Assembly (NCBI RefSeq): GCF_964204645.1
Contig: NC_134027.1
Location: forward strand, 5,444,485-5,508,484
Length of the DNA stretch: 64,000 nucleotides
DNA from: Tubulanus polymorphus
Taxonomy: Eukaryota; Nemertea; Palaeonemertea; Tubulaniformes; Tubulanidae
Direction: 5' to 3'
Shown here piece by piece: positions 6,021 through 57,652 of this stretch. Every line of letters starts with the position of its first letter. Positions within the stretch are counted from its first letter, which is position 1. The notes below the pieces were generated by a model. It ran no database searches, was not told the DNA's origin, and worked only from the letters and a program-made list of their open reading frames with translations. Made by a program: the position numbers and the translations under genes.

Positions 6021-9000
6021 TCTCGCTAATCATCTAGATGTTTTCAAGACTAATCTGATACCTGAAATTATAACGGACATGAATTTATTAGAAATGTCAA
6101 CACAACAATGCATTATATTTGATAGATATTGATTTGACTATACACACTACTTACTTTCATTTCATTACATTTTTATCCTCTTTAAAATGATGCTCTTCAA
6201 CGCAATGGTGGTAAATTTATGAATGGTTCTTTGCTCAAAATCAGAACTCTACAAAAAAAAAGTTTAAAGAATGATTAATGCACGACATACTGCTGAAGTT
6301 GAGGAAATGAGGTAATTAACTGATTACTGAAGAAATGAATACCATGGAAAGTACAGAAACTATAACATCACAGCGCAAACAACTAATGATAACCAAGTTC
6401 TCAATGAATATCCATGGTATAACGCACAACAATATGAACACTCCTTACATATAAGTCCCTCTTAATAAATATCATGTATCAAGTTACTAAGATATAGGCA
6501 TCTACTGGCCCGATTTTAAGCCACTCGAATCATGCATCCTACACATGGACTTGTCGCAATATGCCGATTTCATAGAAAATGGGGAGGTGTGCCATCTCTA
6601 GGATGAGTGTACATCTCTACAGTGGTTCTTAAAGAAAACTCCAGAACCTTACGTAGCCGATACATTTTATAATAGGTGTATGTAAGGATACATAAATGGT
6701 AGAGCTATTGTGATATTTGGATCCAAGTTGTAAGATAAGCATCTTCTACCCTAGTGATGCTGCCCTATTTCTAATGTGAAATAATACAGTAACCAGTTTA
6801 AGCCCTAAGGAAAACCCTACTAAATTGGTTGAATCAAATTAGAGAAGAATTGAATCGATTTAATTAATCAATCATGTCATCTTGTCCTTGTTAGGGAATC
6901 GTAACTGATCAGCATTAACATTACATGATACATAAGAGGTAATTCACAATATCAAACAAGTGACTTAATTATTAGAACACTTATTAGTCGCGTTGTTATG
7001 TAATGTGGGAACCAACAACGAAGACGGACGAAAGTCCGAAACACAGACTATAACAATCAGAGATCATTGCTCAAATTCACGAGATAATTCAACATTTCTG
7101 TCATACGAAAATAGTTTATCAGTCGGATTTGAAATTATTACCATTTAATCAGAAATCAGTTTGTGGGAATTGGTGCATATTGAGAATATATTGTAGATTT
7201 TCTTCTAGAATAATGCACAATTTCATTATCATAGAGTATCGTAAATTAGCGACCTCTATTCCCCTAATCGCTGGCTGCCGGCATCGGCATCCGACTCGGA
7301 CTGTCATGCGGACTTTCAATTCAATTCAATAGTCACTTTATTCATACCGTTTGCCGGTACTGCAAGCACGGCATCAGAATCACATACACATCGATTAAGT
7401 TGACAAATGTTTCACATGATAATGAGAAAAAAAGAACAGTTCTAAAATTGTGCCCGCGCAGTTAACCTGTCTTCAAGGCGTTCTACTTGAAGTAAGACAA
7501 CTAGTGGAGAATAGCAGGGCCGCTGAGCACTGAGTAGTCACACCGGCCGCAAGGTACGATTATTTTCATGACAATTGCACAGGTAACTCTATCTATTGAA
7601 ATATCAATAGATACAAGAAGTGACGTTTGCTTCTCTGATCTCTTTCACGTTTGCCGTCAGTTGCGTCATGACTCAACTGGATTCTTCGATATCATATGCG
7701 TCTCTAGTTTGATAGTTTTCATATTTTCGATCGAGTCAATGCTCAACTGTCATTTCAATTCAAATAGCGAAAAGATGAATGGCACGACGTGAGCTTTAAA
7801 TGCGCGCATGATTGTAAAGCGCCTCGAATTACCATGAAATATCTTAAATGTTGCAGATCAACTCTTGTCGATTTTTCAGTCAAACGAATTCGTGACGTAG
7901 CCTAATATCGAAGTTCATTCTGAAAGCCCCTTAAATAAGGCTGGAAAGTAGCATTTGATCTCCCATTGATGCAAATAATGCGCAAACATGTTTGCGGCAA
8001 TTTCTCGGAATTGTCTGGCTGTGAGTTCGCGTGTCTTCTAGAGGAATGACTAAATCTAGCTTGGTCAGTGACGTAGTGTCTCTTGCAAATGATATGTATG
8101 ACCACGGGGATATCTTCTCAAGTAGAAGTGATAGTCTATGATGAGAAATTATTGACTATGCTGACTCTGTTGACGGACTGTGAATATGAAAAACGGCACT
8201 GATTCAAAAAGAAATATCGATGCAAAATAACATGATTATATGCCATGAAGTGGGATTTATGAACGCCGGGTTTCAACATAAGATACACGGTGGCAAGTAG
8301 CAAATGTTACAGGAATTGGTAATTTGTTTGATATCGGTATAGCACGCGAATAATCCACGCCACCATGGCTCGGAGCATCTTTCCTAATAGAAAGGGCAAA
8401 TAGTATCATCCGTTCGGCACGAGGATGTTAGTTTGAAACCGAGATAACAACGGCAATTATCGTAACCCCAAGAATAGACTTAACCCGCGGAGGCTGTACA
8501 CATTCCCTAATTTTTAATGCATTTATCACCAGGATCATCATCATTATCATCATCAAATCAAAATTCATAATTAGAAATGTTTTTTAAGGTCTCTTAGCTG
8601 CTCAGCATTTCACCAGCCGTAAAGCAATTGGGCGTCGGAATATGAGGCATTTATATCAGCTGTTGAAAACATCTCAGAAAACGACATTAGTATCGGCACC
8701 ATTAAACAAGAAACACGATGCAACTTCCATGCGCTACTTATGCGTTATATCATAGCTACAGCGTGGATTAGAACTGATTTACAACCGTCTTCGTCAACTT
8801 CAAGTATTATGTCGCGAAGGTCGGAGCACTGCTTGTTTCTAATATTCGTGCGGTGATTGGAGGCTATATCGCAGCCTCTGTCGGTTGCTCCCGGAATATC
8901 TCCTCATCGAATACCATTTTTGCAACACGTAAGTACAGTGGAAGGCTCTATTCCATTTCTATATCTTCTCTGCTATTAGTGAAACAAAGTTATGTATCGA

Positions 9001-19300: not shown

Positions 19301-21926
19301 TGTGTGCCGAGTCATCATCATTAATCAATTCAATTCAAGAAATGTAATCTGATCGTGTTTGACAATGTCACTTGGTGTGTGTATACTTATTTCAGCCGCC
19401 TTCAAAAGATCGGGGAGGGATCTATGTGCCGGAGAAATATTCACAAGGTATGTGTATTATATTCCGTAAATGCAATCCATTTATTTCATTTGAAAATATT
19501 GCTAGAATAGCGAATTTGAAAATCAAAGACGTTTACTGTTATAATGATGATTCTTTAGTATAGTGTAAGCAGTACCAGTGAACATAACATTATATAACAG
19601 CCATATCTAACATCATTGATTTACACCAAGAGACATAAGACGAAAAATTCCATTTCCAAACTAGTAAAATCGCGTATTGTGCTGAATCTCGTCCGTTATG
19701 TCAGACATTAAATACGAAATCGGTAGAAACAGGAAGTAGAAATGTTCAGCCTAATGGAGTCGCTATTATTGAAAGCCACGTTAATAACCGTTCAAATATA
19801 ATCCTAACGATCTACGCAAGGAAGCAAGCAATGCGGTCGCAAAATATCTCAACCGCGTCGACCTCTTTTATCACATGTATTTGCTGAAAAGCATTCTTAG
19901 TTCTGAAAGCAGTTCTTTTTTTCAGATATGGATTCATGCAAATTAACGAAGGTAAAGATTGTGTTTTCTCGTGGCTCGCTTAACATGTTGTCTGAGTAGA
20001 AGGCTAATTGAAACTTTAATTTTTCACTCTTAAGTCACAATTTAGGAAACTTGCAGACCAGGTACGCGAGGTACATATAGGCTATCCCGGTAGAATTCGC
20101 ACTTCCACCAGTTTTAGGGTAAATAACATTCTTTAAGCTTACCTTCCCTGATAACGATTTTAATATACACGTATCTTACCAATTTCTTTTTTTAAGAATC
20201 TGCGATCAGCCCCGACAAAAAATGACAATCAACCAATACTTTATCGTAGTCAATTGGCGGAAAGTATGAAAGTATTCCAAAAGAAAACGTGGAATCCTCA
20301 TGATTCGACTACAGAAACAAGAAGATTTAGACGCGAACCACTACATGTAAGATGTAAACCAATAATGGGTTCTAATCCCTGGCAAACAGAGACCAAAACG
20401 TAAGTATAACAAGACCGGGGTTGCGTGATAGATTTAAACAGTCAACTTTTACAGTAGACTCACACTCACTTATTCGGATTACTATAGGGACTGCCGAAAT
20501 TTCTCCGAATTAAGTAAAATCTGAATTATGAACGAAAGTTTACATGGTTGACGACGTACTGATATAAAGGTTCACTTGGAAGGCAAAGAACAGTTATGAG
20601 CCAGAAATATATGCTGAAACGATTTTTCTATCATGGCATTCACATTGTAGGTTGAATACATCAAAGTATGTTTATGAGCCAAGACAGCGTCCGAGTTCAA
20701 GTCCGGCTAAGATGCGCGATAACCAGACAGGCGAATTCGATTCACTATCGACATCTAACATATACAGTATAGCAGCCTGCGACATCATCGATAGCGGCTT
20801 TGGAGATATAACCGACAATGGGGACAAAGCAATATCCGAATCAGATATGTCGGACGATGAAAACATCCCTGAACCATCGGTCGACGAAAGCCGATGTGCG
20901 CCAGATTTATACCTGCGTCCGGAGAACATGCAGGCTGTTTATTCGGCTGAGCATCCACGAGATTATCTCAAGTACGATTTCGACGCATCTCGCGTGCTCT
21001 TACCTTCGTACGAATTCGAATACGCCGGCCCTATCGAGTTCAAACACGTCGATTTTAATGATTTGAGTAAATTCGACAAAGACTGGCGCGAAATGACGAA
21101 GAGACGACCGGCGAATGTCGCTGACGAGGCGATGATAGATCGATTTATACAATTGGAAAGACTTCAAACAAAAACAATCGAGTGGGAAATATCGAAGAAA
21201 GAAAAGGCTCGAGCCGCCATTCGTCACAAAATGGCACTATCACAGATACTGAAATCGCAAGGACGACGAGCCCAAAGTGCTAGAAGTCGCGATAGAAAAT
21301 GTTGCGGAAACTGTTTACAGCCTGCATGTACAGGAGACTGCCCGACAAAGAAAGCAGCCCAGCATATTTGTATTCAATGTCGGCAGCCGTATTGCAATGG
21401 GCGATGTGCGCAATCATCCACCGCGTATACCGACCACACTCGACAAACTCCGATCGGCTCCGACGACGATGATGTACGCTCCAAACCACCAACTCGCCCT
21501 CAATCGTGCAACGCCTGTCAGAATCGCACTAGCCGCGGTAAACTTATCAACGCAAATAACATTATAATGGGCAGACCGAGATCTAGTCACGCTACATACT
21601 CAAGCGGCGGGCGATGTGCAAAAATCGGAAAAGATCTGCGTCCTCGTTCAGGGATTCAGGTTGACGATGATCTGAGTAAACAATTTGATAAACTCGGTGT
21701 TGATCAACACAGTCGCCCGAGCACTGCTAAACGTACCAAGATCAAAGGTCGCTCGGCGGTGATACCCGGTAAAGCGTTTCATTCTCAGAGACATAATTCG
21801 CTAACGACTACGAGAAAGATTCGAATCAAATCAGCACCGCCGAGACTTAAACGTGCGCGCGCTGTTACGAAAAGATCTCAATCAGCTAAGACGGAAACTT
21901 TAAACGAAACGATGCAATATAACTAA
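16354..21926 (+). CDS. Unrecognised 601-residue protein with twin Cys motifs
   Basis: Seven-exon model: 16354-16448, 18911-18980, 19396-19447, 19926-19951 (26 nt), 20035-20118, 20197-20399 and 20651-21926. Phases join cleanly and total 602 codons including the stop. The protein is hydrophilic, without signal peptide or membrane segment, so it is probably intracellular. The last exon holds an acidic stretch (DMSDDENIPEPSVDES), a Lys/Arg/Glu helix, and two copies of a compact Cys motif, CGNCLQPACTGDC and CIQCRQPYCNGRC, that look metal-binding. The C-terminus is very basic, with RIKSAPPRLKRARA and RSQSAK. I do not recognise the family. The head-to-head position with DNAAF4 makes a ciliary role a testable guess. 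Exon 4 is the least certain: it is short, and phase demands the acceptor at 20033-20034 for exon 5 if it is included. Skipping exon 4 and using the later acceptor at 20055-20056 also keeps frame. Confidence 0.75.
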
Positions 21927-25679: not shown

Positions 25680-28600
25680 ATGTTTCTTTTCTTCGCTGTC
25701 GTCACTCTCGTATTAGATATTAGCTGTGGTAAGTCTCAGGTGAAAGTCTTATTCACTGCGATTGCATCGCCATTTCAGAATTTTCAAATTCTTACCTCTC
25801 TCGTTCTTGGGCTATACATTGAGAGCTAACCCAGCTTTACTCATGCACATTCTAGGAGCATACGATCATCGTGTGGCCAAATGGACTCTTGACACCACCT
25901 CAGCAACATTGGACGTAACAGGGAATGGCAACAACCCATCAGAGGATTCCTATACTTTTGTTCAAGGCCTCAATTATGATGGCAATGAAGGATTCTTATC
26001 GACATTCGATGGATCCAGCCATAAGATCCGCTTTTCTAAAGAGGACACATCACTTGATATAAAAAACAAACTGTTTGGTTTCACCATCACAGCTTACATA
26101 CGACCAACACAAGTCGCGGCTATGCCTATTTTCGAATGGTACCAAGGGATGTATATTTGGCTGTCTAATAACATGCATATTCAAATTAGTCTAGATCACA
26201 ATACTTTAGATATATCTGACCAAACGGACCCAGTACCTACGAATACATGGACGTTCGTGGCTGTAACGCACGAACCAACTATTGGCCACCTCAGTGTATC
26301 TGTACAAGGTTCAAAATACGAAGCCAAAAATGTGATTTCATTTTCAAATACATCGGGTGATTTCTACATCGGTCATCGACCGGCTGGCTCGGATCCCGGT
26401 AGCCCAAATTACTTTGCTGGACAAATTGGATGCATTAGCATACATGACAAGGGGCTGACTGATTCAGAAGTAGAGGCGGCTCGACTACGCTGCATTGGGC
26501 ACCTCGGTTAGTAAAAATGACTCGTTATAATTTCTATATTTAACAATAGAATAGTGTTTTAATGGCACTGTTTGCACAGATTCGTTTCAGTCTCCAAAAC
26601 TGTATTTACGCCTGGATGCAACGTTTGGAACGAATGATTTATCGAGGAACAGAATCCCGATCACTGACGTCAATGTGCCTTTTCAATTAAGCAGTGGCAT
26701 TGGACCAAACGACTTACCAGGATTCTCCAGTTTCCAGTCGGTAACCGGAAATTCAGTTTTCTACATAAATTCAGCCGACCCCAGTGGACCACTAAATTTA
26801 CAAGGGAAATCATTCACAATCATGGCCTACATCAAACCCACGTTAACCAACTATCAGGTTTTGTGGGGATGGGTGACTGGTAAGCCAATTATTGCATGTT
26901 AATATAAGCCTATCTAATAGTATCAAATGAATAACATGCTTGTTTTGTCCTTTAATCTAATTATCTAGGAGCACGCTTAGGTGTCATAAATAATAAATTC
27001 TATGCCACGTTCGTTGGTAGTAATTACTACAGCACCGAACTTGTACAGAACGCTTGGAATTTCGTTGCCACCTCTTACAACTTAGCCACAGGTTCACTGA
27101 AAATGTATGCGAATGATTCGGTAACTTCGGCAAGTGTTCCGTCATTGACACCTGATACCACTGGTAATATATTGATAGGTGCCATTGTATCGTGGTACCA
27201 GTATCAGTACAGAGGCAATGTAGCCTGCATGTCTTTATTCGAGAAGGAACTCACAAAAATACAAATGGACGCAATTAATGCAGTATTTTGCAAAGGCGAC
27301 AGCGGTTAGTAAACCTGCCTTCTATGGAGACGTGCAGTCATTTAGAAACATATAGGACCTCAAGCTTATCCTTGTGCTTTTTATCTCAAGCAGAACCGAC
27401 AATGGCACCTGTTGCTATGTGGCGATTTGATAAACTATTCGGTACAGCAGACGTGGCCGGCGGCGTACTAGGCGGTACACCACACGGTGACCCATCAGTA
27501 TTCCATGGAAAAGGACCTCGCAATCAAATTTCATTTTACAGCTACGAATTCGATGGTACTGGTGATTACATGGTGGTATGTGAGTCAGAGCAAAGCCTTC
27601 TATCCAGAATATGAACGTGTACTAAAGTTAATTCATCGATAATGCCACCTAGTTTTGAATTTCAGATTCCCAATAATGGACAACTCGATTTCGGAATGCG
27701 AGACTTTACTTGGACAGTTTATTTCAAGATGCAGAGTCGCAAGTACCATACGCTACTTTTATACGATGAGTTAGTTTTGAAGATTACGATGCATATGAAC
27801 GGAGTTCAACAAAACGTTTGGAGTAGATTCGATTCGGGTGTTTATCAGCACCCTACACCATCACCGCTTCATCAGTGGACCTCTCTCATAGTTTCATATG
27901 ACTACTCGGCCGGTTCGTCTGTTCAAATGGCTCGACTGAACGTAATTTTCAACAACAACAAAAAATGAATGCAACCATATATGATTTAACTGGTATCTCA
28001 TTTTAGGTAAACTGAAATTGTGGATGGATGGACAAGCTCATGAATTTAACATCGGCACAAAAAATATGACGATGTCTCAAGATTTGATAATTGGTCGGAC
28101 GTCAGGAACCGGTCTATATGATATGCATGGACGGATTGCGTGTATGGCCATGTACGATAAAGTACTTACCTATGCTGAAATAGAATCACTGAATCAAGTA
28201 TACTGCATTGGAACAGGTATTGAAATCGTAAGAAAAAGTTTTTCAGATTCATAAGTATATTGCTAGTTAACTGTCTTATGGTGATATTGTATTTCAGCTG
28301 AGTCAACAGATGGCCCTCCATTTCCTACAATTGGTTAGTTGTATTATCAGCTGAAATATTTTCTAACAAACACAAGATTGTGTTATGTTGAATCCGAGAA
28401 TCAACTGAAGCAAATTACTTTTTTTAGGATATTGGCCTTTGGATGAAAACAGTACACTGTCTGACCTATCTGAGTACGGCAATAACCTAACAAACTATGG
28501 AGCAATATTGACAGAACTTGATTTTGCTGGTGAAGCTCAAATGGTTTATCTCTTGAACGGCACGAATTACATAAAACTTTCGAACGTCAACAACTTTTTT

Positions 28601-31351
28601 GACTTCGCACAATCTCGAAGTTTTACGTTCTTTCTTTTTGTTCGTCCCAAAAACGTCAGTAATACATACGGGATAATGCAATGGAACAGTGGCGCGTACA
28701 TGAGAGTGAAAGACAACGCATTCGAAGTAAGACTGAATTTAGATTTAGCATTTACGCTCGTTAGTGGACTACAAGATGGATTTTGGAACTTTGTCGGCAT
28801 GGCTTACGATAACGATGACGGCGTTCTGAAATATTGGGTCAACGAGAACGTTGGAACTCAAAATATTGGGAAGATTATTAGTCTGACAACTGGTGATATA
28901 TACTTTGGTGTTCAGCCACCGAACAACAACTATTTCACAGGTTATCTCGGATGCATCCAGGCTTATGATATCTCATTACCGGATTCAATTATTTTCAAGG
29001 CGAAACTGCTTTGTCAGTCTGGTAAGTATATTCATCAGTAACCTGTATTTCGGAACAACGAAACATACAAATAGAAAATCGAAATCAATCCAAAATACCC
29101 ATGAAATACTCACGAACCCGCTTACCTGTACGTACACGAATTACATTGAAAAACCTGGGCTCAGTTTCACAAAAAGGTTTAACTCCTCAATCGATTTAAG
29201 ATGCTAACTGAATCTATAAAGAAATTAAATCGACCTTTTCGTGAAACTGGGCGTGGGCTATGATGATACAGACAAGAAACACAAATGTTTTAAGTAAAAA
29301 ACTAAAAACATCATCGACAAAAATCAAAATATCACTACAAAAACCTTTTTCACGTGATACATTTTCCTTCCGTTCCATTTTTTCTTTTGTTTTAGTGTCA
29401 AAAAGCTTTTATTAGAACAACCCAACATGATACTGAACTCTCCAATTACGGGAGTCACTTCTCGAAGAATGCGGCACATTTTGTAGGAATAGTAGATACT
29501 TCCCTGGAAATAGATATAGCTACATCAGGTCCCGTGACTGGTCGTTATCATTCGATACCTCTTCAAACTAGCACGTCTACAGAATCATAATCTCCTATTC
29601 GTACAGTTAAAACCTCCAATCCTGTACACTATGAATTCATTACCTACATTAAGCAACAGAAAATGATATATATCTAACAAAAAGTGCATGAATACGATAT
29701 TCAACCCGAACAACATTCAACACTACAAACGATAACTATTCACAGCAGGAATTCTGAAAGACAGAAACAGATATATTTGCAGAAAAACTCAACTTAAGTG
29801 TTAGTGCGGTAAAGGGGGGTATAGGATTCATCTTTTTCATCTCTATTGCAGCCACGATCCCAAACACAACAGCAGCAGTTCCGACAACCGAACCGATTCC
29901 CACTCTTGCTCCGGACATCGCCTCTAAATACACATTACTCTTTTTGGTGGACAGCTCTGATTACGTAGGCGAGGGAAACTTTGGCCACGTGAAAAATCTG
30001 GTTCAATCGACGCTCGAGAAATTTACAGGAAACGATGTTAAGATAGGACTTGTGCATTGTGCTGATTCGGCATCTTCGGTGTTTACCGTGGGGCAACATA
30101 CGCTTTCTGAAGTCATGTTACTTCTGCCAACCGAGTTGAAATATCAAGGTTACGTACGAATAATCCTCTTATTATTGAAATGTGCAGTGTTTTAAGGATA
30201 CTGTTCATTCCCTAAATCTCAACCTATTTTCAGGCGGTGATTTCGATTTATTGAAAGCTATCAAAGAGTTATTCGTCCGGCAAACCAACCCTCTTCAAGA
30301 CGTTGAGAAATTGGCGAGTGCGATGGCGTCTTACGAGCAGCTGTACGGATTGAGGGAAACCGTCCGTATGATACGACTTGGCATGATACGTTTGCCGCAG
30401 GCAGTGCCACGGAGCGAAACGCTGGTTTTAGTGACTGGCAACGATCTCTACTACGACAAAGAGGTTAATGAACGACGTGAAAAAAAATTGTAGCCTAGAC
30501 TAGAGTCATGTTAAAGTGGTTGGAGATTAAGAAACCTGTTGATCTTGTTTCAGAAAATAAAGGTGGTCACAGATATCATACATCGCCTAGGAATACAAGT
30601 GATAATAGTTGGTCCATCGTCGCATGTTACCAGTGTACAGGACTACATGAGTTTGATGAATACAGAAACTGATATGATTCTTCTGTCAGATGATTTCGGT
30701 GGTTTACAAGCACTCAGTGATCCAATATTCACTGCCATCACACAACGTCAGTTTGAACGCGATTGAATCCTTTATTTTGATCGATTCTCATTTCATGTCA
30801 CATGTATGCGGTATTGATATAAGATATATGTAATATTATCGTTTATTCTTGAATAGATGTAAAATGTCCAGAAGGATTTTACCAAGCTGGAACATCGTGT
30901 AAACGTGAGTTATTCACAGTTAAAACCGGTGCTCGCATATATAATTGATAAACATAGGGGTTTATCTTTCTTAGGATCCGAAGCCGTGGACTATTTTTGT
31001 CAGTTAGCTGACGGACAGAAATATGCAGCAGGAAGTTCGTGGACAACAAGGTCTTGCTATACGTGGTCGTGCACGAGCGCTGGTCCAGTTGTTACGTCAT
31101 ACGGTAAGCCTGGTCGTCTTTCCAAGTCAAACCGGACTGCATATTACTGATGAATAATGACGTGATGTTCTTATGTTAGGAACTCCGTGATTTCATGTCA
31201 TTCTTTTGCTTCAGGTTGTCGGAATGCTAGAGGTCAATGTCTACCAATTGGATCGAGTAATTTCGTGTGTATTGTGGATGGTGTCTGGTACAGCTCGTGT
31301 CGCTGTACGTATAATGTCCAGACGAAAAGTGTTCAATATACACACAGTTAG
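25680..31351 (+). CDS. Secreted protein with four LamG-like domains, a vWA domain and a Cys-rich tail
   Basis: Fifteen exons: 25680-25728, 25856-26506, 26580-26879, 26969-27304, 27391-27575, 27666-27912, 28007-28216, 28298-28333, 28428-29021, 29852-30148, 30234-30463, 30554-30746, 30857-30904, 30975-31103 and 31215-31351, for 1213 residues. Exon 1 is a signal peptide (MFLFFAVVTLVLDISC). Four concanavalin-A-like LamG_3 modules follow at about 17-233, 234-445, 446-659 and 672-869; each ends with a Cys after a pattern like GCISIHDKGLTDSEV. A Thr/Pro linker leads to a vWA domain (about 895-1110) starting YTLLFLVDSSDY. The 100-residue tail has ten cysteines and resembles single-domain vWC repeats. 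There is no membrane segment, so it is probably extracellular, in matrix or fluid. Nearly all introns are phase 1, as in exon-shuffled genes. Ligand and function are unknown. The start is the ATG before the hydrophobic exon. Confidence 0.85.
29157..29252. mobile_element. MITE copy 1, TIR family with GTTTCAC ends
   Basis: This 96-bp element has inverted ends, GGGCTCAGTTTCACAAAAAG against ACCTTTTCGTGAAACTGGGC, in the intron between exons 9 and 10 of the LamG/vWA gene. A second member lies at 47160-47269. Confidence 0.6.
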
Positions 31352-44418: not shown

Positions 44419-47400
44419 TTATTCGTCGAGCTGAGGTAACCAGAATGCCTGAAAAATTCATCAGAAAGCGGCATTAGTGGATCTACATGGTCGAATAAAC
44501 TGAAAATCATTCTCGTGATAGAGTCAAAGTTGCTTAATCCGAATCAGTTTAATACAGATTACATCAACGGTCATCTATACATAAATTCATGTAAAATATG
44601 ATATCTAATTTGGATTAATTTCATTGGTACCAAATGATCTGAGTTCTACTGTGATATAGGGGCAGTCTATTTATTGATACAGTCGGTTCTTACCATGTTC
44701 GAACAGGCACTGGCTAACATCATGTACTTAGGATTGAACTGTACGCATTGAACAGCACCGCCGTGTTCAGCGTTCAATATGGCTACTCGTGCACCGGTCT
44801 CTGTATTCCAACAATATACACGACCATCAGTAGAACCTGCAAACACGTTTACATTCATATTTAAGATTTATAACATAAAAAATCGATAAGCCAAAGATAA
44901 GAAAAACCAGTCTTCATACTTACCACTAAATACAAACTGTGAATCTGGACTGAACGAAGCTTCCATTGCGAGTCCTTTGTTATTTGTGATACCCTGTAAC
45001 ATTCAAAAAGCAAATGAATAAATCAAACATTAGAACATTGCTGGTATCTACGCATGATTGAAGGATCTGTTGACAGCTATTCCACCTCAAAGCAGGGATT
45101 ACTCAAATTATGAAGTAGATTGTATAACCAGGGTACTCGCCATAAATGTTTGCAAAGAAGCTCCTTGAAAAGCATCAATTAGATGAACTGCCTGGCCATT
45201 CGTTGAGATCAGAATCATTTTACCATCAGGACTAAATTTCAAGCCGGTCCAATCGCATTCTCGATCCTGTGTCAACTTGAACGTCGCAAAGGGACCCTTA
45301 AATCGTAAGAGAATGTGGTTTAGCTGAAGAATGAAGTTGGATTAATGATAGCTATGAACTATCACTCCTGATATCAATGATTGCGGTACCTTATCAAATG
45401 ACCTCAGGTCGTATAATTTCACATGTTCCGAGTTAATTCCAGCTGCGAAAATCAAACCTTCAGGATCGAACGCAGCTACAGGTCGACCGGTTAAATGCAT
45501 CAACCCCTGAACAACAGAACGGCGGTTATAAAGAAAGGTGAAAATACACATTTCACAACTATGCTCATGAAAAGAAACAGTAATCCTCACCTGACAATTG
45601 TGAGATCGTAAATCCCACAAACGAATCGTTCGGTCCAATGACCCGGACAAAAACGTATCATCAACTGGTGACATGCACAGCGTAACAACCCTGAAAACAT
45701 TATATTAATTAATAAATAAGATCATCTATGAACATTGTTATACCCTCCTTATGAAAATGTTCATGATCCATGCTCACTTTTTCGTATGTCCAGGAAAATA
45801 TCGAATGTATTTATTATCATGTAGAGACAAATAACGAATTGTGTCTGTAAGAAAGAAGAATGAATTTCAGATGAATAGATATCATGCAAACATGAGAATG
45901 AAAGTTTATCTAATTTAACAGTCACAAGGTTCCTACAATTCCTGGTATCCAGAATTCAAGGAATTTTTAAGGAGTAATTTTCAAAATTCAAGGAGGTTTT
46001 CGCGGTCATATATAAGGAAAAAGAGTCGAAAATTCAAAAACAAAATCCCCGTTTTTCTCAAATTTTGATCAGTTGTTGTGTGTGCCGTTTTGGTTTTACA
46101 TGTCTAAATCTCAAAGTGAAACAACTTTCATTCACAAGTCACACAGTGAAGAATAATAGAATACACTGTCTTCTGAAAAGGACTTTTTGAAAATTTTTAA
46201 TAGGACTTTCCCAGAATTTAAGGAGTTTCAAGGAGTTTATGGATATTTCTCAAAATTAAAGGATTTTCAAGGACCTTGAAAAATATTTTCAAAAATCAAG
46301 GATTTTTCAAGGATTCAATGAGTTGTAGGGACCCTGAATCAGGGTTAGACATTTGGGATGCCTTAACTGCAGTTGCACTAGTCAGGAATCAGGTCCACAT
46401 TTCCGGTGAAGTTTGATACGATCATACAGATATGGAGAGAAATCCTTAGACGTACCATCAACTTTAGTAGAACTGTGAATGGCAGCATTCGTTGCATGTG
46501 TATACTGTATCAAATCTACTCCATATTTCTTACTGTTCAATGTCCTCTTCGGTCTACAGTAGAAATCAATACATAAATACACAAATGATGAATTTCATGA
46601 TTGGAGTAATAACCTAATTAATGAAAGCGAATATTTTGCCAATAAAGCCACTATTCTTAACTAGGGGTACATGCACACTGCACTTGACGATCTGACTTTC
46701 AATATTCAACGTGCCACAATTGTAGAACATGAGCTACAATTTCGCAATGGATTATTGATTGTGGTAATTAGGTAACGATGTGTAGATGTAGGCATATTGA
46801 GAACAACAGCTAGATATTAAAGACTGGGGAAAGGTTTATGGTTGGCAATAGAACGTTTTAACTTTCACAAGTTCCTGCCTGAAGAATGATTGGCAGAATG
46901 GTGGTATACAGTGGGTTCAAATCCTGATTTTTCATTTATTCCTGTGATGAGATGCTGAATTTTCAACATGTTCAGCAGGACCGCATGAAGACGGCCTAAT
47001 TAATACAAACTGTCAATGGTTACGGGAGTCTGTACTATATCTGCGTACGCGAATGTTTAAAGGAATAGGGTTAGGGTAAGGTAAGGCTTTATACAGATAA
47101 ACTTTCGTCATGGCTTCCAGTTGTGTGCTGTGGCTCGGTGGGTGAAGGGTACAGCTTTCAGGGCCAGTTTCACGAAAAGGTTTAACTCTTAAATCGATTT
47201 AATTTCTTCATTAATTCAGTTTATCTTAAATCGATTTAGGCCTTAATCCTTTTTGTGAAACTGGACCCTGGTCTATTGCTAGAAATCTTTGCTTTAGTTT
47301 CGAATCCCAATTGCAAGTCAGAATTCTAGTGTATTGCAAAGCCACAGGGTCGGACAGTGTAATGTAGGCGACATCATCCATGCATAATAATGGCAGTGGT

Positions 47401-47661
47401 AAGCAGTATGAATGAACCATATATAGGTGAATAGCAGCTATTAAAAGAGTGCGCAATGGCAAAATATTCACGGTCTCTTTCCAATCTATAGCACACGTAC
47501 GTTCCGTTTTGGCAATCGTAAATTACGATGGAATCATCGTCGCTACTCGAGATCAATGTTTCTCCATTTGCTGAGAAGTTCATGCAGTTTATTTTGTCGG
47601 TATTTTCTCGAAATACTTTCGCCACGCGAAAACTCCGTACAACATGATCGGTTAGCTTCAT
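44419..47661 (-). CDS. WDR82: WDR82, WD40 subunit of SET1/COMPASS and PNUTS-PP1 complexes
   Basis: Nine exons in transcript order: 47501-47661, 46456-46553, 45778-45844, 45591-45690, 45390-45506, 45141-45296, 44924-44993, 44694-44836 and 44419-44448. They total 313 residues, the same length as the vertebrate protein. Conserved blocks run throughout: [104 protein letters not shown], and the last short exon encodes AFWLPQLDE. The protein is a WD40 propeller. Known role: it recruits SETD1A/B to phosphorylated RNA polymerase II and works in transcription termination. Eight introns separate the nine exons. The intron after exon 6 starts with GC instead of GT (GCGAGT). The start is the ATG of the conserved MKLTD N-terminus, not the upstream in-frame ATG at 47716-47718. 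Confidence 0.95.
45926..46336. mobile_element. Degenerate inverted-repeat element in a WDR82 intron
   Basis: The ends AGGTTCCTACAATTCC and GAGTTGTAGGGACCCT are imperfect inverted copies. The interior is rich in CAAGGA and TTTCAAGGA words. The whole element lies inside the second intron. Probably a non-autonomous DNA transposon of about 410 bp. Confidence 0.4.
47160..47269. mobile_element. MITE copy 2, same family as 29157-29252
   Basis: The ends AGGGCCAGTTTCACGAAAAG and CTTTTTGTGAAACTGGACCC (ending at 47268) are inverted copies and match the copy at 29157. The element is 110 bp, in the first intron of WDR82, and contains TCGATTTAA words shared with copy 1. Confidence 0.6.
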
Positions 47662-50634
47662 TTTGATGGGAAAAGTCACGATAAAAGAGCCCCAACAAGC
47701 AAGCAAACTTGCAAACAAACTGAGAACTTTCTAAAAAAGCGTTGAATGAAAATGGCCAATGTTGAGATGTAAGCTCTGGACGGTTTCAGCTAATATACGG
47801 ATATGGACTCTCAGAGTAATCCTAAAGTTCGGATAGTGGAATGGGACAAATAAATTCAATCAATGCCTTTATTTACACCTGTATTTAACAATAAAGATGA
47901 ATTTTACAATTATAGCATTATGTCAACAAAGAGACATTTGAAACGACAGTAAAAGGATCTAGTAAAGGCTCAGTGACCACTATATGCCAGCATAAGCCGG
48001 CACCCGGCCGGGTGAATTTATCTAGTGTAACAGATTCCGACAAATGCCTCGTCGAAACTGGACTATCAGTTTTGCCTTTATAAACATCTTAATGTGTGTC
48101 AAATTCTGCATGGGGAAAATATTTAAAATCTGTTAAACATATAATCATATAATTTTCACTGCGCCGCTTATGGGTGGATGTCCTTAACCCAGAGTTCCGA
48201 ATACGCATGTTGGGTTTTATTTTCTGTTGCTGTAGTATATTGCTAATACACGTACTCTTTTCCCTCCATAGACCATGGAGATGGCAGGAGTGTAATGAAT
48301 ATTCCTATTCGTATTTGATTTCACATTCAACATTCATCAATCAACCGCTAAAGCTTCAATGATGAATCCGTTTTTTAAAATGTGTTTGAAGCCCTCTAGA
48401 AGCTCGCATCGATAACAAAATAATAATGTGATAATTTCACCAGGAAAATTATGAAATATTAGTCTAGATTTCATTTGAAATAATGAATTTTTTCAAAGTT
48501 TTATATAGAACTCTTGTTCGTATTTCAATAACATCTCCCCATTTTAAAAAGATTTATATAATGAATGCAAATTTGAATTTTGTATTTTTGGGCCATCATT
48601 TTCCACTTCGGATCCTATTCAGATGCAGTGAAATTTGCAAAATCAAGAATATTCAACTATATCATGACCAAATTTCCAGGCCCAAAACCCAGGTTGAACA
48701 TTAGTTATAGGGGTTTTTTTCCATTTAAATGATCAAACCGGTGACACCAAAAATATGTGCACTGGACCCACAACTTCAGTCTTGCTTATGTTTCTCAGAC
48801 TGCGCGCACCAAACGAATTATGTAGTTCATTACCGATCCTGAATTTGCAAATTTCAGTTGAATTATGAGAAGAAAATTAATGAAATATATCCTCCATGTT
48901 CCAGAGCCGAAGAAGCCTTCAATCTAAGGCCGATTGTGAGACGGCTGGAAGACAGCTTACGTTGGAATACGTAATAAAAATATTTGTTTTTTACACACAT
49001 TTAGAAATATTTAGCAAAAATGGTGTAAGGTAGATTCGATACATTTCATTATAATTTACGAGAATAAAACCCTGCCTGGTGATTGACAAATAGTTGCTAT
49101 TTTTTCCTAGACGTGTTTTCTGTTGAGGCTTAAAGTGATGAAATAATGCAATTTTGTTGTCATGGAATCTGAGTGGGTAGTTTAATGTGATTGATGTGGT
49201 GACTGGGAGATTATAAAGCGGAAGTTTACGTAACATGAATTTCCCTTTTGTTTTTTTTCTCTGAAAGACTCATAGAAGGATAAGAAAGGCATATATGTAA
49301 ATGTCAATTTTTGAACGCCAATATTCTAGCTTCTACGTATATAGATATATGAATATTACCGAAAGCCTTTGAAGCGAACAAGGACAATTTAGTGAATTTT
49401 GGAACAAAGGAAAATGGGGTAAGATGCTAGTCGTTAACTTTTGTTCTACAAGTGTTTTAGATTACGCTGTATGAAGCGCATGTAGAAAAATAGGCTTCAC
49501 AGTCTGTGGAAACGCAGTGGAGTGATTTTGTTCTGGCGTCGTTTCTCCAGTAGATCCCTCGGTTGACAAGCCTTTCATCTACCAAACAACAGAGCACGTT
49601 ACTGATTTCACTGGCTTACGCACTACGCTCACAGTTCCTACGCGAAATATCACCTAGAATGGATTTTCTCAATGTTCGTCCTCAAGATACAAATCAAAAG
49701 CAAAATTATCAGCTCTTTTGATAGATCCACGTTTTTATTCGGTTAATACAAGATGATATCAACATATCAATGAAAATGCTTTGCAAAAACAAATTTATCT
49801 ACGATATCCGTTCTATGAATTTATTTTTCATTATCTAAGTGAGGTATAATGCTTGCCTTTTCCTTCATATAGCCAATCGTACGATTAATGCGTTATATCA
49901 AAACAGAGCATGAAAATAGGCATTGCATCAAGGTATAAAATTGTTATTTTCTACTAAAGAAGCAAAAATTGATCTTTTATTGCAAAACATGATAAACATA
50001 GCTAGCTAATACATCATGATATACAGCATTTGTGCATTGTAACTACCAATATGACTGATTTTTGGCCTAGCCGAATGTAAAATGATGCCAAATTGTACAT
50101 GTAGGGAAATCATTCATTTAAGAGACAAATATGTAACTTGACATATAATCATTCGCGTAATAATACCTGGCCGTACTTCATTTACGAGGAAGGCAGGAAA
50201 CAGCTTGTCAACCAGTCATCTTTAATTCAAGTATCATTTTCATTAACTACTATCATGGATACATAATTAGCGATGTCGCATGCGTCGCGTGTGAATTAGG
50301 TAAACTTAGATTGGAGAAGAAACTACTGGAAGAAAAGCAAAAAGGGACAGAAAATGTATGTGTATCATAGAAGATAATCTTTAAGCCGTTGATTGAAAAC
50401 TCAGTCTTTGAACAAATCATCGTGTCATGGCATCAGCAGCGATTTTCATACAAGAATATTACATTTGCAGCTTGTTTTTGAAGAGAAAATATACTTTATG
50501 TAAAATAAATCTCATTAAATGCAGCAGTCACAATCTTTTTATCTCGGTGGAATTTATCTGTATATTCCCAACGCCTTTCGGAGATGATTAACCGGCGGCA
50601 ACGTGGAACTTTTGAGCGGTGACATCTGAAGATT
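47662..50634. other. Spacer upstream of WDR82
   Basis: This should hold the WDR82 promoter and, at its right end, the 3' UTR of the prokineticin-like gene. No supported coding exon is seen. Confidence 0.5.
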
Positions 50635-53600
50635 TCACGAGGCGCAAACAAACTTGCTGGGTGAGCAATGTAGATCCGACATGCAGGGACATAGGCTGAA
50701 TGATCGACGGTAGTCTGACGGTGCTGGCATACTATTTGGATGGCACTTGTCACCAAGGTCTTGAAGGCCTCGACATTTCCGAATACCGAACGCAGTGAGT
50801 ACACAACATTCGTTGCGTCCACATTGCGCGTCCGTTATACAATCCTGTAAATAAACGGGACATACATATTATTAGCATTAGGAAAGACATCTTCTCATCT
50901 CATATAGTCAAAAAACAGTTTCTAATACAGCATAGCGTAAATGAATAACAATTCAAACTCTTATCTGAACATAAAATATCTATGGTGTCACAAAGTATAT
51001 TAGTCTTGATCATTTTTTTTTATACCATTTCAAAAGGAAATATAAGATAATTCTGTTCGTTAAGTAGTAAGGATGGTGAATTTTTTGTCACTGTACTTAC
51101 GTGTACCAAACCTGATAAGACTAAAATTAGATAGAATTTTACAGTTTTACATGATATGTGTAATCTTAAAAAATAATGTTATCACGTAACACACTACTGA
51201 CACGTCATTGTTAAAGACTAACATTCACAGGTAGCTATTATTTCTTATTTTTTTTTGTTTCATATACGTTAAACACATATTTTCCAAAAAAGAAAAATTT
51301 CATTCTTTTCACTTGTACCAAGAGATTCTTTTCTCGTACACACGGCGCATAAACGGCCTTTACATTGACCTCTGTCGAAGAACCTGGGGAACGGGCGACG
51401 GTAATCGGCGTCGGAACCTTTTGTCGCTAATCGGGTCCACATGGGAGAAAATTTGACGTCTTGTCGCCAATGATTCCTGATGTGAAATTGGAAGGCAGAA
51501 GGAAAGATACCTCATGCTGTGGGTGATGCCGCCGGCACTATACAGAGGAATCACTACTTTTATTCTCGATCTTGTTGTTCGCGGTAACTTGATTGCGTGA
51601 CACAAGTTCAAGGCAAATACCAAATTCTCGTGATCATAGTAATAAAAACTTGCATCTTCGGTAGCCGTGTGTCAATCTGATAATACTATACTACGAGTTC
51701 ACGCGGACTCTAGTAATTAGTAGACGTCTTCGAAGCAAAAATGCCATTCAACTATATCTGTACTTCGATTTTAAAAACCTAAACTCCTGTTTCGTTCCCG
51801 GCAGGCGTGTTGGGTTTTTAAGGGATGCAATCTCAAATCAATTGAAAATCAAATCAGATAAATAGGAGGGGTAATTTTGTCTTTTAAGATAAAAAATTAC
51901 ATTCAATTAATTACTTTCTATGATAAATTGAGATATTCACACGCGTAAATACATTTCGAATCATTCACCATAGTTCAGAATTTAGTTGGAACAGGAAATA
52001 CTGTGTTCATCAACATCAGACGAACGAGAAAAGTTTCGAAACAATTATACTATCAAAAATACGCCCCAGAGGTATCGAATATCATACGAGGCTTATTATC
52101 GCTAAGAGTGTCGTGAAGAATAAATTAGACCCTGTTGTTCTGAGATATAGCGCTAATGAGCGCGCCACAAATTTCTACGAGAAATTACCCAATTAGTAGT
52201 TTTCGCACGTATACTAACGGTAAGACGGTATAAGGATGATAAAATGAAGACAACCTTTTAGCGCCGCCAAACGATGATCGGTGTGGCAAGCTATTTGTCT
52301 TAGTTTGTGATTGCAATTGATTCGCAGGTATATTAATAGGATAGTTTTCGTTAGTTTTGCCCGTTACTGATTCACGATGATCTAATACGACTCATGGACG
52401 ATCTAATACAGGCGATATTAAAAATCAGATGGTGGTTTAAGTGATGCGTACGTATACATGTAAGCGTGGTCACGTGTAACAATCCGGCAAAAAAACAAAT
52501 TACCGACTTAGACATGGTTTCCATGCTAGAAAATGATTTCCTTCCTTAAAGAGCAGGTAACAAGAGGTAGTTCAAAAATGTATTTCTTCAAACACCGCAC
52601 ATAACTCTCATTTTTCCTCATTAAGATAGTCGCAAGGGTTACGCGTTGCGTAATGGTGTAATGTCACCACAGTCGCGACACGAACGCGACTGTGTATTAT
52701 TGCTGCTGAATGTTAATGCAGTTTGATTACAACATCCGGTTATTGACCTTTACAACTAAGAATATCATAAAAACTGCGCTGAATGAGAGAAGCTTTCACG
52801 TCGTATTTCAAACGGCGAAACAGAAACATTTCACTCAAATATCTTGTCGAAAATACTTCGAAATCAATCAAAATAGCCTCCATAAAGCCAGGATTTGACG
52901 GAACGTGTTAATCATTTTTATCATTCAAGACCCGTTCTCCTCGTATATTATATACTAACAAGCTACAGTAAATCTGCAAAAGGTCATAATCCCGGTGATA
53001 GTAGCAATCAAAGTGACCACAGATACGCGTCCACTGGTCAAGCGCGCATACGCTCGTAATTATGTCTCACGGAGTCGACGGCAGATTGCGGACTAAGCTG
53101 TCGTGGCATCGAATCAAGTTAGCATCGATCCTGGTAATACCGGAGGATAACTTTGATGTGGTAGTAAAATGAGTTCCACCTACCCTCATCGCATTCCCAT
53201 CGATGGAAGAATCCAGTCTCGCGATCCACAGATAGATGAACTAATTCTGTGTATACGGAATCTGATGACGGCCAATACTTGCTGGAACGTTTGAAGTATT
53301 TATCAATTGGAATAGCTAAGTATATAGCCAATTAGTTAGTTCCTCTGATCAAACCGATGCTTTACTTAGTCGACAATTCCTCTCACAGGATCCAAATTTT
53401 TTCATGCCGTTAATTGATGATCTAGGCCAGGATCAGCCCTCACTATATTATCATACAGTGAAATATCAACACGTCTTGCCTGTGTTACAACAATTCTTGA
53501 TCGTCTCAGTAAAGAGAAATATTACTAATAACGTTAATTCGTCGATATAGTGATAAAATGCCAAAGCGTGTCCCACAGATTGTGCGGCTCAACTCAAAAA

Positions 53601-55310
53601 TCCGTTTAACGAAGGATGAAATCCCGCACGTACGCAGATTAATCCATGAATCGTGAGGAAGATAATCGATAAGGAAGATTTACTTTTTTTGTTATTAACT
53701 TATCGTTTTTTTAAACCTGACGTGGTACGAAAAAACAAAACAAATATATGATAGCCAACAATATCGTACTTGCGAGCAAAAACGACCGCCGCGATTTTCA
53801 GCTCATTTTTGCAGCGTCGTGATGACAGTATTGTAAGGTAGAAGATACATCCAACTTTTACGTCCAGATTACATTGTTATGCATGTTGGATAGACTTTTT
53901 CTGTTAGCATCTTGAACAATCTACTCACACACATACACGCACATAAGCGTTCACTTAACTCATTGCGTGATAAAAACTGAGCTATTCTGCCGAATACCTA
54001 TCTACACTTGTAATATGAAACATCAGAGGCGACAGTACACAGCCGGTCTCAGATTTCGTCTGTTTTTACCACGATATTTGACGACGTGGGTTGTAATGAT
54101 ATCACACTATACCGAAAGATTATCCGATGTTGTGGAAACTTTGAGAACTTTTAGTTGTGGGCAATAACTCTGTCACAGGAAACGTGCTTTTCAACCTGGA
54201 AAAAGATGGATTTTACCTTTGATTGGGCATCAATCTTTACATTGTGACACACGGGACTTTACCTGTTAGTTTGTATCATCATCACGCCATTCGGAAACCC
54301 AAGTTAAATGAATGACATATAGACAATCTTAGACTACGACTGGAAAGATGTTGATTTTTCATCATGACAAGGAATGACTAGTACCGATACGTACAGTAAT
54401 TAAGTATTGTGTTGTTCACGCGATGACGGGCTCCACGCTGTTACATACCTCATATAAATTTCCATTTTCGAGCTGTTTGGTTAACCCAAACATTAACTAA
54501 TTAATTGATTTACAAAGTATCTATATCAACAGAGATCCATGGAAAACAACCTGTACACGCGGCCTAACAATGATTGATTCAGCGCTGTAAAAACCAACCA
54601 GAAAAGTCCTCTCAAAACAATGTTTGCAGTTCCTTCGAAGCGACCATTAAAATCGAATTAATTTTCACTGGAATTTAAGAGACACTTAAATAAGGGGTTG
54701 ACGATTTGTCAACTGGAGATAATAGGTAAATTTATCTAACATCAAGGGGTTAGCAAAATTTGTACCGTACTCATTAGGTTCTTCGCATCCTACAGAACGC
54801 GAATCGCGATATAGAAGATCAATGTTCGGTTTTCGTGATCAAATACGATGACATTTGCTTTATGCCAGTTGATCTGCAGATGGAGGCTAGTTACATGAAA
54901 TGTAAGAAGCTTAAAAATATGCACTCACATTAACCTTAAACGATGCATCGCAACATGGAAGCGGAGAGGGGGTTACAATCCAGCTGAAGGTATTTAGTTT
55001 ATAAGCCGGCAAATCTAAAACAAGAAGCTGTGTGTCTTGTTAGATAATGAAAGTACCCGAGGGCCTGTGACTGTCTTGACGTGACATCAGTTCAACTCTA
55101 GCCAATCAAGTGAACCTTTAATCCCGCCTTACTGACATATATGTTACTGCTAAATAATCAGTAGCGAGGACGTGGCCGGTTCCTCGCGGCACGGTTTACC
55201 GTGTATATACAACGATATATTGGACTAATTTTCTGCCGCGATGACCGCGACAAATCAGCCGACGACAGAACAGTTGCGGCGATAAACAGAATAAATACCG
55301 TCGAACGCAT
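50635..55310 (-). CDS. Prokineticin/astakine-like secreted cysteine-rich peptide
   Basis: The firm part is the terminal exon 50635-50844, read after an acceptor (TTTACAG): 69 residues and a stop. It has ten cysteines spaced C-x5-C-x4-CC-x9-C-x9-C-x17-C-x-C-x5-C-x6-C. Vertebrate prokineticins share this order and most of these spacings, including C-x5-C-x4-CC, the x9 loop, the x17 loop, CPC and C-x5-C; loops four and last are shorter here. Visible motifs are ITDAQCGRNECC, GDKCHP and LCPC. In vertebrates such peptides bind GPCRs; astakines are haematopoietic cytokines in arthropods. The candidate first exon, 55200-55310, encodes a signal peptide (MRSTVFILFIAATVLSSA), ends in phase 0 at GTAAAC and would give 106 residues in all. 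It adds an eleventh Cys, so the link is less certain than the exon itself. The N-terminal AVIT motif needed by vertebrate prokineticins is absent. Confidence 0.6.
50845..55199. other. Putative intron of the prokineticin-like gene
   Basis: This 4.36-kb stretch contains no clearly supported exon. A minus-strand reading around 51300-51500 includes DYRRPFPRFFDRGQCKGR, which looks peptide-like but has no matching splice pair that I can defend. Confidence 0.35.
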
Positions 55311-56146: not shown

Positions 56147-56231
56147 TATGGTGGCTGATAAGGGCCATAGCGTAAAATTCCTGGTATGTAAATGAGGGCG
56201 CCAGAACGCCAGAACGCCAAAACGAAAAAAA

Positions 56232-56760
56232 ACGTCCAATTTTCTCTAAAAGTTCGTTTTGGCGCGCCAAAACAAAGAAAATTCCGTTTTGGCGCCCCCG
56301 CCAAAACGAACTTTCATTTTGGCGCCCCCGCCAAAACGAACTTTCGTTTTGGCGCCCCCGCCAAAACAACGAAAAACGTCCAATTTTCTCTAAAAGTTCG
56401 TTTTGGCGCGCCAAAACAAAGAAAATTCCGTTTTGGCGCCCCCGCCAAAACGAACTTTCATTTTGGCGCCCCCGCCAAAACGAACTTTCGTTTTGGCGCC
56501 CCCGCCAAAACAACGAAAAACGTCGAAATTTCTCTAAAAGTTCGTTTTGGCGCGCCAAAACGGAGAATATTCCGTTTTGGCGCCCCCGCCAAAACGAACT
56601 TTCATTTTGGCGCCCCCGCCAAAACGAACTTTCGTTTTGGCGCCCCCGCCAAAACAACGAAAAACGTCCAATTTTCTCTAAAAGTTCGTTTTGGCGCGCC
56701 AAAACAAAGAAAAGTTCGTTTTGGCGCGGTTATTTCCGTTTTGGCGCCCCCGCCAAAACA
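56232..56760. repeat. Left arm: 144-bp tandem repeat array
   Basis: The marker ACGTCCAATTTTCTC or its one-base variant recurs at 56232, 56376, 56520 and 56664, exactly 144 bp apart. Each unit holds one perfect palindrome GTTTTGGCGCGCCAAAAC and three copies of TTTTGGCGCCCCCGCCAAAA. Confidence 0.9.
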
Positions 56761-56884
56761 AGCATTCAACCACAGTAAAATTATTTTTCAAATTGGCGCG
56801 TTGATCTTGTGTGTAATTTGCATAAATTTGCATAAATGAAAATATTTTACGTATATATAGAATTATTTTACGTGGTTTAAAGTT

Positions 56885-57585
56885 CGTATTGGCGGGGGCG
56901 CCAAAACGAAGGTTCGTTTTGGCGGGGGCGCCAAAACGGAATATTCGTTGTTTTGGCGCGCCAAAACGAACTTTCAGAGAAAATTGGACGTTTTTCGTTG
57001 TTTTGGCGGGGGCGCCAAAACCAAAGTTCGTTTTGGCGGGGGCGCCAAAATGAAAGTTCGTTTTGGCGGGGGCGCCAAAACGGAATATTCTCCGTTTTGG
57101 CGCGCCAAAACGAACTTTTAGAGAAAATTGGACGTTTTTCGTTGTTTTGGCGGGGGCGCCAAAACGAAAGTTCGTTTTGGCGGGGGCGCCAAAATGAAAG
57201 TTCGTTTTGGCGGGGGCGCCAAAACGGAATTTTCTTTGTTTTGGCGCGCCAAAACGAACTTTTAGAGAAAATTGGACGTTTTTCGTTGTTTTGGCGGGGG
57301 CGCCAAAACCAAAGTTCGTTTTGGCGGGGACGCCAAAATGAAAGTTCGTTTTGGCGGGGGCGCCAAAACGGAATATTCTCCGTTTTGGCGCGCCAAAACG
57401 AACTTTTAGAGAAAATTGGACGTTTTTCGTTGTTTTGTCGGGGGCGCCAAAACGAAAGTTCGTTTTGGCGGGGGCGCCAAAATGAAAGTTCGTTTTGGCG
57501 GGGGCGCCAAAACGGAATTTTCTTTGTTTTGGCGCGCCAAAACGAACTTTTAGAGAAAATTGGACGTTTTTTTTCGTTTTGGCGT
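56885..57585. repeat. Right arm: 144-bp tandem array, inverted
   Basis: The inverse marker (GACGT after GAAAATTG) lies at 56987, 57131, 57275, 57419 and 57563, again 144 bp apart. This arm has one unit more than the left arm, so the two arms differ in copy number. Confidence 0.9.
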
Positions 57586-57652
57586 TCTGGCGTTCTGGCG
57601 CCCTCATTTACATACCAGGAATTTTACGCTATGGCCCTTATCAGCCACCATA

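Follow-up and report, generated by a model that had tools for sequence, protein, structure and literature searches.

The minus-strand exon described here is proposed to be the terminal coding exon of a prokineticin gene present in one copy, whose product would be a secreted hormone acting through two prokineticin-receptor-like G protein-coupled receptors (GPCRs) encoded on contig C5 of the same genome; a probability of about 0.78 is assigned to this reading as a whole. The exon lies in a stretch of 64,000 nucleotides, which is called the window here and to which all positions given without a contig refer. In the proposed mechanism a first exon, probably the candidate listed in Table 1, would supply the signal peptide by which the peptide is secreted, the secreted peptide would adopt the colipase-like prokineticin fold with its five disulfides and, in the role of a hormone or cytokine, act on the two C5 receptors, and its own N-terminus would stand in for the AVITGA sequence.

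Table 1. Coordinates of the prokineticin exon, of its associated elements and of the two receptor genes.
Feature	Position	Strand	Remarks
3' terminal coding exon	50635..50844	-	Complete ten-cysteine prokineticin domain, 69 aa, and TGA stop
3' splice site region	50845..50866	-	Ends TTTACAG; phase 0; one residue ahead of Cys1; direct reading
Candidate exon 1	55200..55310	-	MRSTVFILFIAATVLSSADLSRSSRQKISPIYRCIYT; signal peptide; donor ACG/GTAAAC; matching phase 0
Overlapping shadow frame	50496..50834	-	112 aa, open; from the ORF list; probably non-coding
Possible polyadenylation signal AATAAA	49976..49981	-	About 655 bases past the stop; by eye
Receptor gene A	exons C5:24755482-24755763, 24723466-24724065; locus C5:24723433-24755799	-	L057-L060 together with gene B
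Receptor gene B	exons C5:23500902-23501174, 23476108-23476695; locus C5:23476081-23501204	-	L057-L060 together with gene A

On direct reading of the minus strand the exon opens at 50844 as TTTATTTACAG/GAT TGT, with a CAG/GAT acceptor in phase 0, and ends at 50635 with TGC GCC TCG TGA; a CTAAT-like branch-point sequence can be made out by eye in the stretch that precedes the acceptor. The encoded peptide of 69 residues is DCITDAQCGRNECCVLTAFGIRKCRGLQDLGDKCHPNSMPAPSDYRRSFSLCPCMSDLHCSPSKFVCAS, with the cysteine spacing C-x5-C-x4-CC-x9-C-x9-C-x17-C-x1-C-x5-C-x6-C. The first-pass annotation of this DNA had given the coordinates, strand and frame of the exon and had described ten cysteines in the prokineticin order with several characteristic spacings and a CPC motif. 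The former are borne out by the direct reading and the ORF list, and the latter are confirmed, all ten cysteines aligning with those of Bv8 and MIT1. The longer overlapping shadow frame that it had pointed out is also real (Table 1). The prokineticin ORF as a whole (50635-50868) begins after a stop codon and contains no ATG from which it could start; the gene must therefore have an exon further upstream, and the present one is the 3' terminal exon. Codon usage gives 0.037 bits per codon for the cysteine frame versus 0.075 for the shadow frames, a lack of separation which neither supports nor opposes the exon, and the case for it therefore stands on homology and splice structure. Downstream of the exon and on the same strand, WD-repeat exons are found at 45345-47730, the first of which reads like WDR82.

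The family assignment is carried by sequence searches. The Pfam profile Prokineticin (PF06607) matches the exon peptide with 41.6 bits (E 1.5e-10), well over its curated cut-off of 21.6, and is the top Pfam match, six orders of magnitude ahead of the next one. Comparison with all PDB sequences by phmmer, up to E 5, returned only frog Bv8 (E 7.4e-11) and mamba MIT1 (E 4.9e-8), and in a search of the whole genome (268 Mb) the exon (E 2e-7) was the sole prokineticin exon above the cut-off. A chance ORF is ruled out by these same values, and the prokineticin family call made earlier is supported. Two sub-threshold prokineticin matches on contigs C1 and C3 carry no cysteine pattern and were discarded as noise. 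From sequence comparison it is practically certain that the exon belongs to a prokineticin family gene, and this gene is very probably functional and expressed.

With the vertebrate prokineticins, Bv8 and MIT1 (AVIT family, PF06607) the peptide shares ten cysteines in identical order and the C-x5-C-x4-CC start, and the loop before CPC has 17 residues as in Bv8 and MIT1, which is the vertebrate prokineticin length. It differs from them in the loop after CC (9 versus 11 residues), which contains no Trp, in a shorter last loop and in the lack of AVITGA in the candidate first exon. Prokineticins of lophotrochozoans (Crassostrea, Platynereis, Capitella and most other phyla) are, by their description, similar in having the ten-cysteine domain and come from the same large clade of animals, and those of the oyster likewise lack AVIT (PMC8398477, PMC6425005, PMC8557429). 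Arthropod astakines are also described as prokineticin-domain cytokines without AVIT, from a different phylum, and astakine signature sequences are ecdysozoan-specific (PMC11521371). As regards the likeness to astakines drawn by the first-pass annotation, the host is a lophotrochozoan and not an arthropod, "prokineticin" is the usual gene name in that group and the 17-residue loop is of vertebrate length. Since prokineticins have already been reported from virtually all sampled lophotrochozoan phyla (PMC6425005, PMC8557429), the ligand alone is an ordinary, routine addition to a known kind.

The N-terminus of the hormone has to be sought upstream. The 19 residues encoded by the first exon of human PROK1 comprise the signal peptide and AVITG, and exon 2 begins just before Cys1 (PMC8877203); the present exon begins, like human exon 2, one residue ahead of Cys1. 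The absence of AVIT from this exon is therefore uninformative on the N-terminus of the hormone, and the earlier statement that the AVIT N-terminus is lacking could not be read from it, even though the best candidate for exon 1, still a putative one, does lack AVIT. This candidate was found by scanning 33 kb upstream of the exon for a start codon, a signal peptide and a phase-0 donor, and is the only good one in the scanned region, where about 0.1 would be expected by chance. Read from 55310 to 55200 it is MRSTVFILFIAATVLSSA/DLSRSSRQKISPIYRCIYT, and its codon score of 0.22 bits lies above the 95% point of non-coding open stretches (0.165). Against it are the weak donor ACG/GTAAAC and an odd extra, eleventh, cysteine, because of which the candidate is regarded as correct with restrained confidence, somewhat on the favourable side. 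It contains no AVIT, RFP or LFVamide sequence, and searches for these three motifs throughout the 33 kb yielded nothing usable. In Platynereis and Capitella the prokineticin precursors carry LFVamide peptides after the signal peptide (PMC3890597), a segment in which the present gene, over the 33 kb, differs from them. At 56180-57620 in the window lies a long palindromic array whose short GGCGGGGGCGCCAAAACG / TTCGTTTTGGCGCGCC units run in either orientation. Several of its reading frames are open, and it looks like a non-autonomous transposable element and not a gene.

The search for a prokineticin-receptor-like GPCR, which had been suggested by the first-pass annotation, was unexpectedly positive. 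Human PROKR2 as a query matches many GPCRs of the genome at about 30% identity. Among them are the two genes on C5, both of which encode intact, full 7tm_1 proteins, 50% identical to each other. Each is split within the Arg codon of its DR(L) motif by a phase-2 intron, and the donors are of the GTAAGT type; a genome search with gene A revealed no third member. Leaving aside the match between the two, they are most similar to PROKR2 and PROKR1, and the tachykinin, orexin and PrRP receptors stand behind together with the other GPCRs of the genome that were compared. As no prokineticin receptor was among the best PDB matches, the reciprocal test was made by tree. In a mixture-model tree, built like the others on a limited reference set, the C5 genes cluster with PROKR1/2 (support 99/96), and after addition of BRS3, NMBR, GALR1 and GALR2 and removal of the longest branches the support for this grouping is 100/99. 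The latter tree also recovers known pairs, placing the orexin receptor with L068, the bombesin receptors with L045/L056 and the galanin receptors with L043/L050. Trees in which the C5 genes are placed with the tachykinin receptors (p 0.042), the orexin receptors (p 0.0005) or the PrRP receptors (p 0.0015) are rejected by the AU test. A residue check of the human sequences used covered PROKR2, where 23 of 23 published positions agree.

Single residues point in the same direction as the tree. Ten alignment positions are common to genes A and B, PROKR1, PROKR2 and at most one other receptor. One of them is Arg 298 (6.58), a proposed ligand contact (PMC3221691). Another is Thr 330 (7.50), found in both C5 genes as in PROKR1/2, at a position occupied by a near-universal Pro in all 18 other receptors covering the region. 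Further likenesses are the CGIGN sequence in TM1 and, numbered as in human PROKR2, Asp 112 and Glu 319. The intron in the DRY motif is also a feature of vertebrate prokineticin receptor genes (PMC8877203), but it is supportive only, because other peptide receptors of the genome are also split there. The differences from PROKR1/PROKR2 are an overall identity of about 28%, DRL in place of DRY and a Glu 2.61 of the human receptors that is not conserved. On the strength of the tree, the AU test and the common residues, it can be held with considerable confidence that the C5 receptors are prokineticin-receptor orthologues.

It has been stated that the prokineticin receptor was ancestral to bilaterians and was lost in protostomes (PMC8557429, PMC6188537, PMC8398477), and protostome prokineticins have been called exceptional, as a conserved ligand without a known receptor (PMC8557429). 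In the literature covered, which was mostly open papers, no report of a protostome prokineticin receptor was found. The receptor result raises the interest of the locus, since it contradicts this stated loss and makes the receptor question directly testable. If the assignment and the pairing with the ligand are right, prokineticin signalling through GPCRs was not lost in all protostomes, the reconstruction of when the receptors were lost would change, and lophotrochozoan prokineticins as well as astakines would gain a concrete receptor candidate, so that the puzzle of their signalling becomes a simple cell assay. That the ligand acts through the C5 receptors is judged reasonably likely, the pairing being suggested by the presence of both in one genome; that a lophotrochozoan has kept the prokineticin system whole, ligand and receptors together, with this peptide as the natural agonist of both receptors, is given only slightly better than even odds.

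The alternative that survives best accepts a genuine prokineticin and lets it act without a receptor of the PKR type, for example through cell-surface F1-ATP synthase beta, the C5 receptors then having another ligand. Such a view is the published one for protostomes, F1-ATP synthase beta having been proposed instead as the receptor of crayfish astakine (PMC8398477, PMC8557429), and it agrees with the lack of conservation of Glu 2.61 in the C5 receptors and with an exon-1 candidate that lacks AVIT. The presence of two PKR-clade receptor genes removes its main reason in this genome, and it is considered unlikely.

The peptide could also be a cysteine-rich effector or a venom-type peptide of colipase fold, comparable to the MIT-like atracotoxins and the octocoral colipase toxins, in place of an endogenous hormone. 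Colipase-fold toxins without AVIT are indeed known in spiders and octocorals (PMC11896702), and the profile MIT_LIKE_ACTX (PF17556) gives a weak match of 21.9 bits. This match falls below the curated cut-off of 27.5 and far behind the Prokineticin score, so the MIT-like atracotoxins were set aside, and the gene occurs as a single copy and not as an expanded array; a toxin is accordingly a very improbable identity for it. A decaying pseudogene or stray exon that has lost its expression would fit the uncertain first exon and the flat codon usage, but the ten cysteines, the frame, the acceptor and the stop are all intact and no other copy above the cut-off is there as a replacement, which leaves this explanation with a marginally smaller chance still. 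Least credible of all is the exon of a Dickkopf-type Wnt antagonist (its second cysteine-rich, colipase-like domain), for although Dkk genes are present in lophotrochozoans (PMC6425005), Dkk domains share the fold and Dickkopf_N scores 20.3 bits, that score is below its cut-off of 25, the E-value of prokineticin is six orders better, no Dkk chain was returned by phmmer up to E 5, the peptide has the prokineticin CPC motif and the Dkk-like exons of the genome lie on another contig.

Those exons, three weak Dickkopf_N-like ones within 36 kb at C8:10025583-10061161 (L079-L081), form a possible Dkk cluster, and one of them passes the cut-off when combined with its neighbours.

The first-pass annotation had recommended a profile search and a structure prediction. 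The profile search placed Prokineticin above its cut-off and the MIT-like atracotoxin and Dickkopf_N profiles under theirs. The single-sequence AlphaFold model of the exon peptide is of low confidence (pLDDT 60.8), and with it Foldseek found nothing significant (E above 1), yet a second structural comparison of the same model had MIT1 at the top of its ranking (Z 4.4, with 2.7 A over 56 residues) and Dkk1 and Dkk4 next. The modelled structure can be said to agree with the sequence evidence and is no proof of the fold alone.

The lophotrochozoan character of the host can be read from its Hox cluster (C6:5318228-5634747), a compact array of ten genes on one strand in the order Post2, Lox2, Lox4, Antp, Lox5, Scr, Dfd, Hox3, pb, lab, which showed no further posterior gene past Post2, as would fit an annelid. 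The genes were named by their homeodomains and flanking motifs, Lox5 having a KLNGP tail, and Lox5, Lox2, Lox4 and Post2 are marks of a lophotrochozoan genome. A search for COX1 gave no match and so yielded no mitochondrial contig. Another homeodomain locus, C3:26132386-26134986, contains four homeodomains in one open frame of 1824 codons and is probably a zinc-finger homeobox (ZFHX) gene.

Several further genes are recognizable in the window. A SNF2/Helicase_C protein of 1620 codons is encoded at 1170-6029 (minus strand) in one intronless open frame, which is unusual beside its intron-rich neighbours. At 20568-21923 (plus strand) there is a match of 39.4 bits (cut-off 27) to the poorly characterised FAM217 family. 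Exons for a Laminin_G_3 (concanavalin-like) domain and, after them, one for a von Willebrand A domain extend over 25744-30192 on the plus strand and probably encode a large secreted or surface protein.
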